A DNA stretch of 64,000 nt from positions 1-64,000 of the forward strand of contig JAPPNI010000025.1 in the NCBI GenBank assembly GCA_028873865.1, written 5' to 3'. This document shows, in pieces, positions 29,535 through 60,200 of this stretch. Origin of the DNA: Chloroflexota bacterium. Its GTDB lineage: Bacteria; Chloroflexota; Dehalococcoidia; Bin125. Numbering within the stretch: position 1 is the stretch's first letter; every line of letters begins with the position of its first letter. The notes under the pieces are model-generated. The model worked only from the letters and a program-made list of their open reading frames with translations. It did not search any database and had not been told where the DNA came from. The translations under genes were made by a program, and so were the position numbers.

Positions 29535-29710
29535 TTGGCATACACCCGGTTGACGGGTGATCCGAACTCATGTACGTTAAGAACCCATGAACGAATCAAG
29601 GCAGCACGTTCAACTGGCCCCGGCTTCCAGCCTTGCCGGTCCACGCCGCGCTCAATGCTCGCGTCCGCCCACATCGGCGTCCCGCGCAGCGCCGAATATC
29701 GCCGTTCTGG

Positions 29711-29830
29711 ACCGAACAGGACCGTACAGGAACCGCTCAAATCCGTACAAATCCGTACAGAATCGAACAAATCCGTACAAATCCGAACAGATCCAGCTGA
29801 CCAAAACCAACCAAAACCTTCCAAAACTGA
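29711..29830 (+). repeat. Decamer-periodic array, copy 1 (12 units)
   Basis: Twelve consecutive 10-bp units with no phase slip: early units of accgaacagg/accgtacagg type, middle units of atccgtacaa/atccgaacag type, final units ccaaaaccaa, ccaaaacctt, ccaaaactga. A related array lies in the opposite orientation near 59941-60060. Confidence 0.8.
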
Positions 29831-29842
29831 CCACCCCAACGA

Positions 29843-29878
29843 CACGATCTTCAGTGTTTCACTGGAGATCGTGTTTTT
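29843..29878 (+). terminator. Rho-independent terminator with 14-bp stem
   Basis: Positions 29843-29856 pair with 29860-29873 (one T-G wobble at 29851/29865) around a TTT loop, followed by TTTTT (29874-29878). This is the clearest terminator in the window. It would end rightward transcription from the nitroreductase operon or from the promoter at 29550. Confidence 0.75.
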
Positions 29879-29932
29879 CCCGCCCCTGAGAAAAAATCGA
29901 AACCAACCACCTGGATCGACAGGACACCGACC

Positions 29933-30580
29933 ATGCCGCCGGTCCGACGCAAGTTCTCGATTCGCAAGGCCAACGCCCACCTGCGCCATGCCGATCCGAT
30001 CCTCGCCCGGCTGATCGGCGAGCACGGCTCATTCCAGCCCCGGCCATCCAACGACCCCTGGTCGGCCCTGGTCCGCTCCATCCTCTTCCAGCAGCTCGCC
30101 GGCGCGGCAGCCTCGGCGATCCAGCGCAAGTGGTTCGGCTTCTACGGCGACGAGGAAGCCACCCCGACGCCCGAACAGATTTTGTCCACCTCGGACGAAG
30201 ACTTCCGCGCCTGCGGCATTTCTCGCCAGAAAATGTCCTACTTCCGCGACCTCGCGTTGCACACCTCCGACGGGCGGCTCAAGCTCTCGCGCCTCAATCG
30301 CATGTCCGACGATGACGTGATCAAGGCGCTCACCGCGGTCAAGGGCGTCGGCGAGTGGACCGCTCACATGCACCTGATGTTTCACCTCGGACGGCCCGAC
30401 ATCCTGCCCGTCGGCGACCTGGGCGTGCGCAAGGGCATGCAGCTCGCCTACGGACTCGCCGAGACGCCAACCCCGAAGCAGGCCGTCGAGATTGGCGCGA
30501 AGTGGGCGCCCTACCGCTCCGTCGGCAGCTGGTACATGTGGCGCGCCGCCGACACCTTCACGCCCGAGCAGTCGCTGTAA
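29933..30580 (+). CDS. DNA-3-methyladenine glycosylase, AlkA-type (HhH-GPD)
   Basis: A 215-residue base-excision repair enzyme. The helix-hairpin-helix KGVGEWTAHMHLMF (about 133-146) is followed by PVGDLGVRKGM with the catalytic Asp (about 160). WSALVRSILFQQLAGAAASAI is the N-terminal helical signature (given as WSALVRSILFQQ and LAGAAASAI). It is shorter than E. coli AlkA because it lacks the N-terminal beta domain, as in many bacterial Mag2-like proteins. No strong ribosome binding site is seen. The repeat element and terminator precede it. Confidence 0.9.
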   Translation: MPPVRRKFSIRKANAHLRHADPILARLIGEHGSFQPRPSNDPWSALVRSILFQQLAGAAASAIQRKWFGFYGDEEATPTPEQILSTSDEDFRACGISRQKMSYFRDLALHTSDGRLKLSRLNRMSDDDVIKALTAVKGVGEWTAHMHLMFHLGRPDILPVGDLGVRKGMQLAYGLAETPTPKQAVEIGAKWAPYRSVGSWYMWRAADTFTPEQSL

Positions 30581-57293: not shown

Positions 57294-58534
57294 CTCAGTA
57301 CGCCCGACGAGGTCAGCTCCGCCACTTCGTCCGCCGAGTAGCCCAGGATTTCCGTCGCTACTTCGTAGGTGTGCTGGCCGAAGAGGGGCGCTGGTGCGGC
57401 CAGGTAGCCCGGCGTTTCGTGCAGCTTGACGATGGGTCCGTCGTAGAGGGAGATGTCTGTCTCGGGGTGATCGAGGTATTCGTAGAATCCTCGGGCGGCT
57501 AGGTGATCGTCGTGCTTGCACATGTCTTCGGCGTCCTGCACCAACGCGGCGGCGACGCCGACCGATTGGAGCTGGACTGCCAGGGCGGCGGCGTCGAAGG
57601 ATGCGGTCCAATCCGAGAGCGTTATGTTAAGTTCATCCTCGTGCCGCCGGCGGCCGAGCAGGGTTGCGAAGCGATCGTCCGTGGTGAACGCTGCGCCCTC
57701 GGCGACGGCGCGAAGCGATTCCCACTGGGCGTCGTCGCCGACGGCGATGGCGATCCAGCGTTCTCGTCCTGAGGGATCGTCGGCGCAACGGTAGATGCCG
57801 TGCGGGCACATCCAGCTTGATTTGTTGCCGTTGCGGACCTGGTTGACGCCGTTGGCGGTGTAGTCGAGCAGCGAGGGGCCCATGGTGGCGGCGACCGACT
57901 CGACCTGGGCCAACTCGATCCGCTGTCCTTGTCCAGTCTTCCGACGGTGCCTGAGCGCCGCCAGGATGGCGATGACCGTGTGGCCTGGGTTGACGACGTA
58001 GTCGGGGTAGTTGGTGCCCACGCCGACCGGTTTCCGTTCAGGGTCACCCGAGAGGTGTGAGATCCCGGTGGTCGGGGTGAGAACCGCGCCGAAGCCGAGG
58101 AAGTCGCGGTGGGGGCCGCTGAGACCCTGCATCGGCATGTAGGCGGCGATGATGTCGGGCTTGACTTCGCGGAGTTGTTCGTAGGTCAGGTTCCAGCGTT
58201 CGAAGATGCGCGGGGTCAGGTTGGAGAGGAAGACGTCGGAGCGCTCGATCAGGCGGTAGGCGACTTCTTGCGAGCCTTCCGCCGACATGTTGAGGAGGAA
58301 GGAGCGCTTGTCGGCATTGAAGTTGTTGAAGTAGGCGCAGACGTTGTAGCCGGTCTTGCCGGGCTTGATCGGCTGTCCGAGGCGCAGGCCGTCGACCCGC
58401 GCTTCCGATTCGATGCGGATCACGTCCGCGCCGAAGTCGGCGAGGGTGCGCGCGGCTATGGGTCCGACGCCGAACCAGGAGAAGTCGGCCACTCGAATGC
58501 CCTCAAGTGGACGCGATCCGTTTGTTGCTGTCAT
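57290..58534 (-). CDS. CaiB/BaiF family CoA-transferase (catalytic Asp present), pair B
   Basis: A 414-residue class III CoA-transferase. N-terminal LEGIRVADFSWFGVGPIAAR, then GVGTNYPDYVVNPGH with the subfamily-typical YPD (Asp 178) and TGQGQRIELAQVES. It overlaps the upstream Asp-less paralogue by ATGA (58531-58534), the same arrangement as pair A but with gene order reversed. Confidence 0.9.
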   Translation of the reverse strand: MTATNGSRPLEGIRVADFSWFGVGPIAARTLADFGADVIRIESEARVDGLRLGQPIKPGKTGYNVCAYFNNFNADKRSFLLNMSAEGSQEVAYRLIERSDVFLSNLTPRIFERWNLTYEQLREVKPDIIAAYMPMQGLSGPHRDFLGFGAVLTPTTGISHLSGDPERKPVGVGTNYPDYVVNPGHTVIAILAALRHRRKTGQGQRIELAQVESVAATMGPSLLDYTANGVNQVRNGNKSSWMCPHGIYRCADDPSGRERWIAIAVGDDAQWESLRAVAEGAAFTTDDRFATLLGRRRHEDELNITLSDWTASFDAAALAVQLQSVGVAAALVQDAEDMCKHDDHLAARGFYEYLDHPETDISLYDGPIVKLHETPGYLAAPAPLFGQHTYEVATEILGYSADEVAELTSSGVLS

Positions 58535-59814
58535 ATCGCGCCCTCTCCGGCGAAGGCAATCAGGTCTTCGGCGGGAATGCCGACTTCGTCGACCCAGACC
58601 TCCTGGTTATGTTCTCCGACTTGCGGGGCCGGACGCCGGACGGTCGCCGGCGTCTCGGACAGATGGTAGGGAGGACCGGGATATCGCAAGGCTGCATCTT
58701 CGGAGCCAAGGCGGGTTGGCTGATTGAGTTCCAGCCACCACTCTCGCGCGGCCAGGTGCTCGCTGTCGGCGATGTCGGACGGCGTGGCCACCTGGCCGAT
58801 CAGCAGCCGCCGCGATTGCCCCTCCTCGTAGGCCTCCATCGTCGTCTTGCTCGCGTAGAACCTCGTCAGCACCTCCTGGGCGCGGGCCAGGACCGGCGCG
58901 TGTTTGGCCTGCTCTTCCTCATCGAGCAGGATGCGCATATTGAAGTTGGCGAAGGTGTTGGCGTACTCCGGCTCGGTCAGATCCTCGGCCATGCCGCTCT
59001 CGTCCATCCAGCCGATGACTTCGGTCCAGGGCGCACCGAATCCCGGGACGCCGACCATCGAGAAGATGTAGCCGTCGCTGGTCTCGTATGTCCCGATACC
59101 GGGCAGTCGATGGCTCTCGCCAACCCGCTCGCGCGAGGCGCCCTGGAAGTCCCACTGCAGGTGGGCGGTCTCCTGGCAGATCGAGAGCGCCTCCTGGATC
59201 GAGGTCTCGACGCGCTGTCCGCTGCCCGTCGCCTCGGCCTGCAACAGCGCCAACAACGCGCCCTGGGCGGCGGAGATGCCGGCTACGGCGTATGCCTGGT
59301 TGCCGGCGATCCTCATTGGGGAGCCGTCCGGGTATCCGGCCAGCGTGGCAATACCGGCTGCCGCCTGCGCGACGATGTCCGTGACCTCCCAGCCGGCCCT
59401 GGGTCCGTCGAGGCCGAAGCCGGTGATCGAGACCCAGATCAAGGCCGGTTGTGCTGCCATGTAGGCGTCGGGATCGACATCGTGCTCGGCCAGCTCGGCT
59501 CGCTCTGCGGCGGTCCAGGACTCGATCACGATGTCGGCAGTCTTGACGAGTTCGCCGAAGAGCCAGCGTCCGTCGTACTGGGCGAGGTCGAGGGTGACAG
59601 AGCGCTTGTTTGCGTTGAAGTACCAGAAGCGAAGGGAGGTCTCGCGGCCGGGAATGCCCTGCCAGAAGGGCGCGCGGCCGCGTGAAGGGTCCCCGCCGAC
59701 GGGCTCGACCTTGATCACGTCGGCGCCGAGGTCGGCGAGGAGCTTGCCGCAGTACCAGCCCATCTCGGAGGTGAGGTCGAGGATGCGAACGCCATCGAGT
59801 GCTGTTTGATTCAT
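58531..59814 (-). CDS. CaiB/BaiF family protein lacking the catalytic Asp, pair B
   Basis: A 427-residue paralogue. Fold landmarks LDGVRILDLTSEMGWYCGKL and DVIKVEPVGGDPSRG are intact. The active-site stretch reads AGNQAYAVAGIS, with Tyr 175 where the Asp is expected. It resembles the Asp-less member of pair A in its N-terminus. A decamer repeat element lies directly upstream. The start ATG 59814 has only a weak upstream site. Confidence 0.88.
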   Translation of the reverse strand: MNQTALDGVRILDLTSEMGWYCGKLLADLGADVIKVEPVGGDPSRGRAPFWQGIPGRETSLRFWYFNANKRSVTLDLAQYDGRWLFGELVKTADIVIESWTAAERAELAEHDVDPDAYMAAQPALIWVSITGFGLDGPRAGWEVTDIVAQAAAGIATLAGYPDGSPMRIAGNQAYAVAGISAAQGALLALLQAEATGSGQRVETSIQEALSICQETAHLQWDFQGASRERVGESHRLPGIGTYETSDGYIFSMVGVPGFGAPWTEVIGWMDESGMAEDLTEPEYANTFANFNMRILLDEEEQAKHAPVLARAQEVLTRFYASKTTMEAYEEGQSRRLLIGQVATPSDIADSEHLAAREWWLELNQPTRLGSEDAALRYPGPPYHLSETPATVRRPAPQVGEHNQEVWVDEVGIPAEDLIAFAGEGAI

Positions 59815-60200
59815 GTTCGGATTGTAGGAGGCGAATTATTCGGTTCAGGGTGGTCGGTGGAAAAATTTTGTCTGGGCTGGAAAAAAGACCAAGAGGTGAC
59901 GATCTCCAGTGTTTTGCGGGGTTTCGCGGCCTGCAGGGTGGTTGGAAGTGGTCGATTTTGGTCGGTTGTGGTCGATACTCGCTGTTCGGGTTTGTTCGGT
60001 TCCGTTCGGATTGGGCGGGTTTCAGCGGGCAGTCCTCGGAGTGTTCGGTGGGCGCCGTGGGGGTGAACGGTTGCGGGATATTGCCAACGCGCATAAGGGT
60101 CGCTTCCTTCCGGGGCGGCCGTGAGTTCAGATTATCAGAATGTATGCTCTAGCGAGATGAGGCCGCAGGGAGTACGTATGCTGGCTTGCAGGAGGCGGAG
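59815..60200 (-). other. Intergenic decamer element, copy 2, upstream of the CaiB gene
   Basis: A 386-bp gap. On the minus strand it runs: GATAAT (60136-60131, possible -10), decamer array (about 60060-59941), the block ACTGGAGATCGT also found in copy 1, a pyrimidine-rich stretch with two T-runs, then ATG 59814. The left arm of the terminator hairpin seen in copy 1 is missing. An open frame through this region extending the CaiB gene's shadow frame is not a gene. Signals for the rightward toxin-antitoxin genes must also lie here. Confidence 0.6.
59941..60060 (-). repeat. Decamer-periodic array, copy 2 (about 12 units)
   Basis: On the plus strand successive 10-bp units read gctgttcggg, tttgttcggt, tccgttcgga, ttgggcgggt and so on, with the gttcgg core at the same position in each unit. 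Read on the minus strand these become ccgaaca-type units followed by accacaaccg/accaaaatcg units, in the same order as copy 1. Confidence 0.75.

Follow-up and report, generated by a model that had tools for sequence, protein, structure and literature searches.

The 10-bp-periodic array at positions 29711–29830 of the window (the whole 64 000-nucleotide stretch of DNA analysed, from a 2.8 Mb Dehalococcoidia MAG) belongs to a family of modular elements that is real, lineage-specific and positioned like a 5′ control site. In one lineage of Chloroflexota, dozens of genes are preceded by such arrays, which are, as far as found, previously undescribed; a literature search yielded no matching report on such arrays in Chloroflexota or on SEC-C/HTH families. 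They occur almost only in genomes with a matching family of HTH proteins, the genes of which hold the same arrays, and the best-supported reading is that of an HTH operator array spread with the HTH proteins, the main rivals being functionless remnants and Rho-loading leaders. The arrays may be bound cooperatively by the co-occurring HTH proteins and serve as 5′ control sites, a proposal made tentatively from the sequence and falling somewhat short of an even call.

Architecture and conservation of the element

The element upstream of a DNA-3-methyladenine glycosylase-like gene is composed as follows, the P, D and E modules being assigned by their sequence, D also by its recurrence among copies and E by its co-variation with B.

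29550–29578, plus strand: P module, a σ70-like promoter (TTGACG-N17-TACGTT, then AAGAAC)
29587–29889, plus strand: short ORF of 100 amino acids spanning the array, in a frame other than the one in which HTH genes read the palindrome
29712–29790, plus strand: A array of eight decamers with CCGAACA, CCGTACA or TCGAACA cores and one 11-bp step
29800–29837, plus strand: B array of type 2, CCAAAAC decamers
29844–29872, plus strand: 29-bp palindrome ACGATCTTCAGTGTTTCACTGGAGATCGT
29889–29899, plus strand: D module, the A-tract AGAAAAAATCG
29902–29912, plus strand: E module of type 2, ACCAACCACC
29933–30580, plus strand: DNA-3-methyladenine glycosylase-like gene, 3′ of the element

The A cores start at 29712, 29722, 29733, 29743, 29753, 29763, 29773 and 29783, the CCAAAA motifs of the B array at 29801, 29811 and 29821, and TRF reports a period of 10 at 29738–29794 and 29800–29827. 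The decamer array described in the original prediction is therefore present at 29711–29830, but its twelve units do not run without a phase slip, since one step is of 11 bp and the B units lie 2 bp off the register of the A units. The B array is followed after 7 nt by the palindrome, the 3′ arm of which is the ACTGGAGATCGT motif; this palindrome, the promoter 5′ of the array and the genome-wide family go beyond what had been predicted. Similar P modules are found in other copies (TTGACT-N17-TACGTT in L097 and TTGACA-N17-TACGTT in L098), and coding selection, judging from the sequence, probably does not act on the 100-residue ORF at 29587–29889 of this copy. Just outside the window lies an ORF with many GTTCGG repeats (coding strand: CCGAAC; L024, G000:C34:83083-83374).

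The second copy, on the opposite strand, precedes a CaiB-type CoA-transferase gene.

60120–60150, minus strand: P-like region (TTCTGATAATCTGAAC)
59983–60050, minus strand: A array with three clean decamers (60009, 59999, 59989) and degenerate units
59934–59977, minus strand: B array of type 2
59899–59927, minus strand: degenerate palindrome
59848–59874, minus strand: D (A/T tract) and E (CCACCGACCACCC)
58531–59814, minus strand: CaiB-type CoA-transferase gene, 3′ of the second copy, where the element is common to six genomes

The array predicted at about 59940–60060 has the same order as the first, CCGAACA units and then CCAAAAC units, and ACTGGAGATCGT, a T-run with GCCC and a CCACC stretch are indeed common to both elements, arranged alike with respect to the gene that follows. 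The similarity of the two regions exceeds chance (local alignment score of 46, against a maximum of 39 for 500 dinucleotide-shuffled pairs).

Comparison of copies gives a general module order of P, an optional RBS–ATG, A, B, the 29-bp palindrome, the A-tract D and the E box. P is a σ70-like promoter (TTGAC-N17-TACGTT or similar), A is (YCGAACA N3)n, the B array is of type 1 (CCTGAAAAAA), type 2 (CCAAAACCNA) or a third, CAAAACTGAC-like type, and the family palindrome reads ACGATCTCCMGTAAAACACTGGAGATCGT or the same with its loop reversed. The B and E types co-vary (B1/E1 34, B1/E2 1, B2/E1 1, B2/E2 18; Fisher p = 3.6e-12, an optimistic value as orthologues were counted in). Composite copies carrying two palindromes occur; in the tandem pairs L037, L045, L095, L096, L102 and L108, an element with the third B type (GACAAAACCTGTCC) and its own palindrome is followed by a type 1 element.

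Within the arrays, the 10-bp step and the YCGAACA core are kept while the 3-bp spacers vary. Among unique cases, 68 of the 71 steps of 9–11 bp between strict cores measure 10 bp, with two of 9 bp and one of 11 bp. At the CaiB locus, six species align across the array and the B region with zero indels; identity by unit position is 1.00 at C2 and 0.92 at both G3 and C6, compared with 0.45–0.70 in the spacer and 0.42 in the upstream flank. Two sucD-like orthologues (G000 and G014) have likewise kept bare arrays with diverged spacers. Where arrays are coding, third codon positions are no less conserved than the others, a measure that is inflated by the picking of cores by pattern, as the CaiB test is to a lesser degree. 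The decamer array, and not the palindrome, is the core of the element, because in G017, of a sister genus, bare arrays lie between genes without promoter or palindrome. At the G017 loci L258–L261, the core YCGATCA replaces YCGAACA with the same 10-bp step, and the core type switches within one array.

Dispersal, insertion and placement

The family is dispersed, as predicted. The 246-bp element has at least 53 BLAST matches in its own genome; copy counts across genomes are lower bounds drawn from the matches listed. A sequence model of the palindrome finds at least 33 copies (about 33) in the own genome, at least 68 in G014, and at least 39 in G005; in five members of the genus the number is zero to two. 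Of the 15 genomes of the genus, 12 contain palindromes, and the palindrome is carried, among named relatives, by Dehalococcoidia and Chloroflexota MAGs. A three-unit array pattern has at least 63 matches in the own genome and at least 68 in G017, which belongs to another genus of the same family, and among the matches listed it has none in 29 of 41 genomes, while a reversed control pattern matched once over all 41.

The element upstream of the glycosylase gene is an insertion, present at some orthologous sites and absent from others. Six genomes are filled (G000, G009, G011, G005, G014 and G013), G005 with a type 1 element and the others with type 2, and nine of the 15 genus genomes are empty, with no more than a few tens of bases between the preceding stop codon and the gene start. 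In a protein tree the filled genomes do not form a clade, and filled G013 is sister to empty G010. The CaiB locus has a different pattern of presence. Another dispersed repeat, GGGGGGAGATGCCGAAGGCAGAGGGGGG, adjoins the element at the glycosylase locus of G009, G011 and G014 (L065, L064 and L071, respectively).

Orientation relative to genes, called with a simple codon-usage gene caller, is biased as well. Of 85 distinct arrays, 61 are intergenic, with upstream/downstream gene strands relative to the array of +/+ in 32, −/+ in 19, +/− in six and −/− in four. Array and downstream gene point the same way in 51 of the 61 (p = 1e-7), in 39 of 49 with known orthologues removed (p = 4e-5) and in 17 of 21 in the own genome alone (p = 0.007), and divergent gaps outnumber convergent ones by 19 to six (p = 0.015). 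The arrays called inside ORFs are all sense (24 of 24), although these are non-independent, many being homologous HTH tails or within-gene repeats, and a few of the ORFs may be spurious. Copy number and orientation support the predicted dispersed 5′ regulatory element with many intergenic copies facing downstream genes; regulation itself is what we infer, as a few copies lie in convergent gaps and others inside HTH coding tails.

The HTH protein family and the operator reading

A protein binding the core had been envisaged in the original prediction, and a plausible candidate now exists: array copies inside genes led to a family of paralogous HTH proteins, whose binding and cooperativity we infer. 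They share a conserved N-terminal HTH and a helical region, probably oligomerising, that ends in RELRxLL and is followed by a probably disordered tail, at times with a SEC-C motif. Pfam gives weak generic HTH matches and SEC-C and nothing else, PDB profile matches are to generic HTHs and designed repeats, and no catalytic domain was found in these proteins with Pfam, PHROGs or NCBIfam. It is the arrays and the palindrome of the free elements that encode the tails, and arrays also lie in the HTH tails of G017.

Across 197 genomes of the class, a profile of the family matches solely in nine members of this genus and in G017. The own genome has at least 15 HTH genes, and up to 17 paralogues occur per genome. 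Arrays were detected in all 11 HTH-positive genomes examined (three to 68 matches) and were absent from HTH-negative G002, G003, G007, G012 and G016 and from the class-level genomes screened for both arrays and HTH genes; within the genus, four HTH-negative members are without arrays. The exception is G006, with seven array matches, partly eroded, and no HTH gene found in a genome that is 91% complete. Within the genus, subgroup and tail type also correspond, since by hmmsearch all 14 B1 tails belong to one HTH subgroup, B2-type tails are mostly in another and A-type tails, within the genus, in a third.

Several HTH units are nearly identical. L163, L164 and L165 (G000:C19:115692, C19:77141 and C22:113300) are 96–98% identical between a point close upstream of the promoter and the vicinity of the stop codon, with unrelated flanks, and these units, C29:3 and C4:50302 and partial copies at contig ends suggest recent amplification. 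Close to the start site, promoters of HTH genes (for example L148, L149, L153, L157 and L158) have GTTC-N6-GAAC or GAAC-N4-GTTC dyads, which resemble LexA/SOS boxes.

In the operator reading, the element would be a dispersed cis-acting site for lineage-specific HTH proteins, which would load cooperatively along the DNA at one recognition core about every helical turn. Arrays in the 3′ coding tails of the HTH genes themselves would provide autoregulation, copies 5′ of other genes would place those genes under the same proteins, and the B and E boxes may be read by one HTH subgroup and the A boxes by another. Spread would occur as promoter-to-tail units, the window elements being a form that lacks the HTH core. 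Cores repeated directly at helical spacing are found together with a candidate HTH protein in the same genomes (G006 excepted), and the co-occurrence, the arrays in HTH tails, the 10-bp step, core conservation, placement, B/E pairing and the near-identical units all argue for this reading. Against it, the array forms part of the HTH gene, which makes the co-occurrence partly trivial; arrays occur in G006 with no HTH gene found; G017, where A-type tails accompany an HTH resembling the B1- and B2-linked subgroups, breaks the match of subgroup and type, so that matching is not general; and the sense-strand bias and C-rich, G-poor, unstructured RNA would equally fit a role at the RNA level.

A rather doubtful extension of the operator reading is a self-propagating regulatory system, in which the coding tail of an HTH gene would hold that gene's own helically phased operator array and copies of promoter and array, lacking the HTH core, would insert 5′ of unrelated genes in fixed orientation, with HTH subgroups and array types co-evolving and dozens of genes rewired in each genome. 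Should the arrays be operators, a single protein family would have seeded tens of look-alike control sites in each genome of an uncultured lineage, a natural example of how a regulatory network grows through dispersal of binding sites, with empty sites for comparison. Whichever frame is read, a 10-nt repeat yields one and the same decapeptide, so that the array can reside in coding as well as noncoding DNA. The pairing of array types with HTH subgroups offers a direct and cheap binding test.

Alternative readings and known systems

The unit of P, HTH core and tail may instead be a selfish dispersing gene, with the window elements as decayed or internally deleted, MITE-like derivatives without host function, their arrays being kept by descent and by slippage of units. 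The clean empty sites at the glycosylase gene, scattered on the tree and with another B type in G005, the 96–98% identical HTH units in unrelated flanks, the variable copy number and the retention of the promoter where the HTH core is missing are all in keeping with this, yet it is judged unlikely. No transposase domain was seen; related units encode HTH proteins, and a search with Pfam, PHROGs and NCBIfam gave no autonomous unit with a transposase among them. Terminal inverted repeats were absent from both the filled/empty site comparison and the HTH unit boundaries, no inverted ends or target duplication being visible at the ends of L163, L164 and L165, and no target site duplication is visible at the glycosylase locus or at L163/L165, where the flanks have diverged. 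The strong orientation to the downstream gene and the preference for divergent over convergent gaps are the opposite of the excess between convergent genes shown by pneumococcal BOX, RUP and IS elements (PMC3049150), and cores, phase and B/E pairing are conserved against diverged spacers and flanks.

Quite unlikely, and acting on RNA, is a leader in which the transcribed array would be a Rho-loading (rut) site, with a YC at each 10-nt step of an unstructured, C-rich RNA and a polymerase-pausing hairpin after it, attenuating transcription from P and possibly coupled to the short ORF. The two window elements contain the two highest C/G-ratio 78-mers of the window on either strand (4.29 and 3.62), array 78-mers have a median MFE of −8.5 compared with −25.7 for random ones, YC is kept by all unit types, and the promoter and sense orientation fit. 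The published terminator consensus of a 78-nt C>G site, C spacing of 11–13 nt and a downstream hairpin (PMC6407284) is matched by a 78-nt C>G region with regular C, albeit every 10 nt, and by the palindrome 3′ of the B array, in keeping with a possible role at the RNA level. Rho would, however, need spaced C alone, leaving the conserved G, the GAACA core, the exact 10-bp step and the HTH co-occurrence unexplained; a conserved sequence core and a strict 10-nt step are foreign to Rho utilisation sites, and the palindrome is without covariation. An intrinsic terminator or conserved RNA hairpin was rejected, as changes in the arms of the palindrome are not compensated and a consistent U-tract is lacking; the window has no Rfam match and no tRNA was found in it.

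That the elements are small protein-coding genes, with the array encoding a disordered repeat peptide (NPNKSEQIRT), is highly improbable: several copies have an RBS–ATG, the same DNA is translated in HTH genes (TISxKTLEIV, KNLKEPE) and several orthologues at one locus keep the frame, but an RBS–ATG ORF reaches the array in just 24 of 97 copies in near-random frames (10/7/7), variation is without third-position excess, 10 nt is no multiple of the codon length, TGA occurs in B arrays of type 1 and the bare arrays of G017 lack a clear ORF start.

For operator arrays, the nearest likenesses are to DNA-binding proteins with repeated targets. ParR- or omega-type centromere-binding proteins are small and bind arrays of 7–11-bp direct repeats near their own promoter. 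The combination of a small DNA-binding protein and short direct-repeat arrays is shared, whereas no partner NTPase or plasmid context was seen and the present arrays are dispersed upstream of metabolic genes. The small terminase TerS of SPP1/SF6 is also an HTH protein with a direct-repeat target region at its own gene (PMC4737164); unlike that system, the HTH loci inspected contain no phage genes, and there are up to 17 paralogues per genome and dozens of chromosomal array copies. TerS family profiles gave no terminase match for the HTH proteins, and a scan with a single protein query found no viral relative. Viral contigs L266–L281 (for example L268 and L273) have YCGAACA-type arrays, some of many units; a viral origin was rejected, since in the 16 viral contigs with three-unit arrays no HTH-like ORF accompanies the array, and these contigs look unrelated.

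Among dispersed elements, MITEs and Rickettsia palindromic elements are similarly dispersed, palindrome-bearing, polymorphic in insertion and sometimes in frame inside genes, the present family differing in its lack of terminal inverted repeats, visible target duplication and a detectable transposase. BOX elements of Streptococcus pneumoniae (boxA–boxB(n)–boxC) are short, interspersed, modular and intergenic, and sometimes form ORFs (PMC3049150), and they share with the present family a repeatable internal module. Unlike BOX, this family has a 10-bp helical-phase array, co-occurs with an HTH family that itself carries the array, and favours the 5′ sides of genes in fixed orientation.
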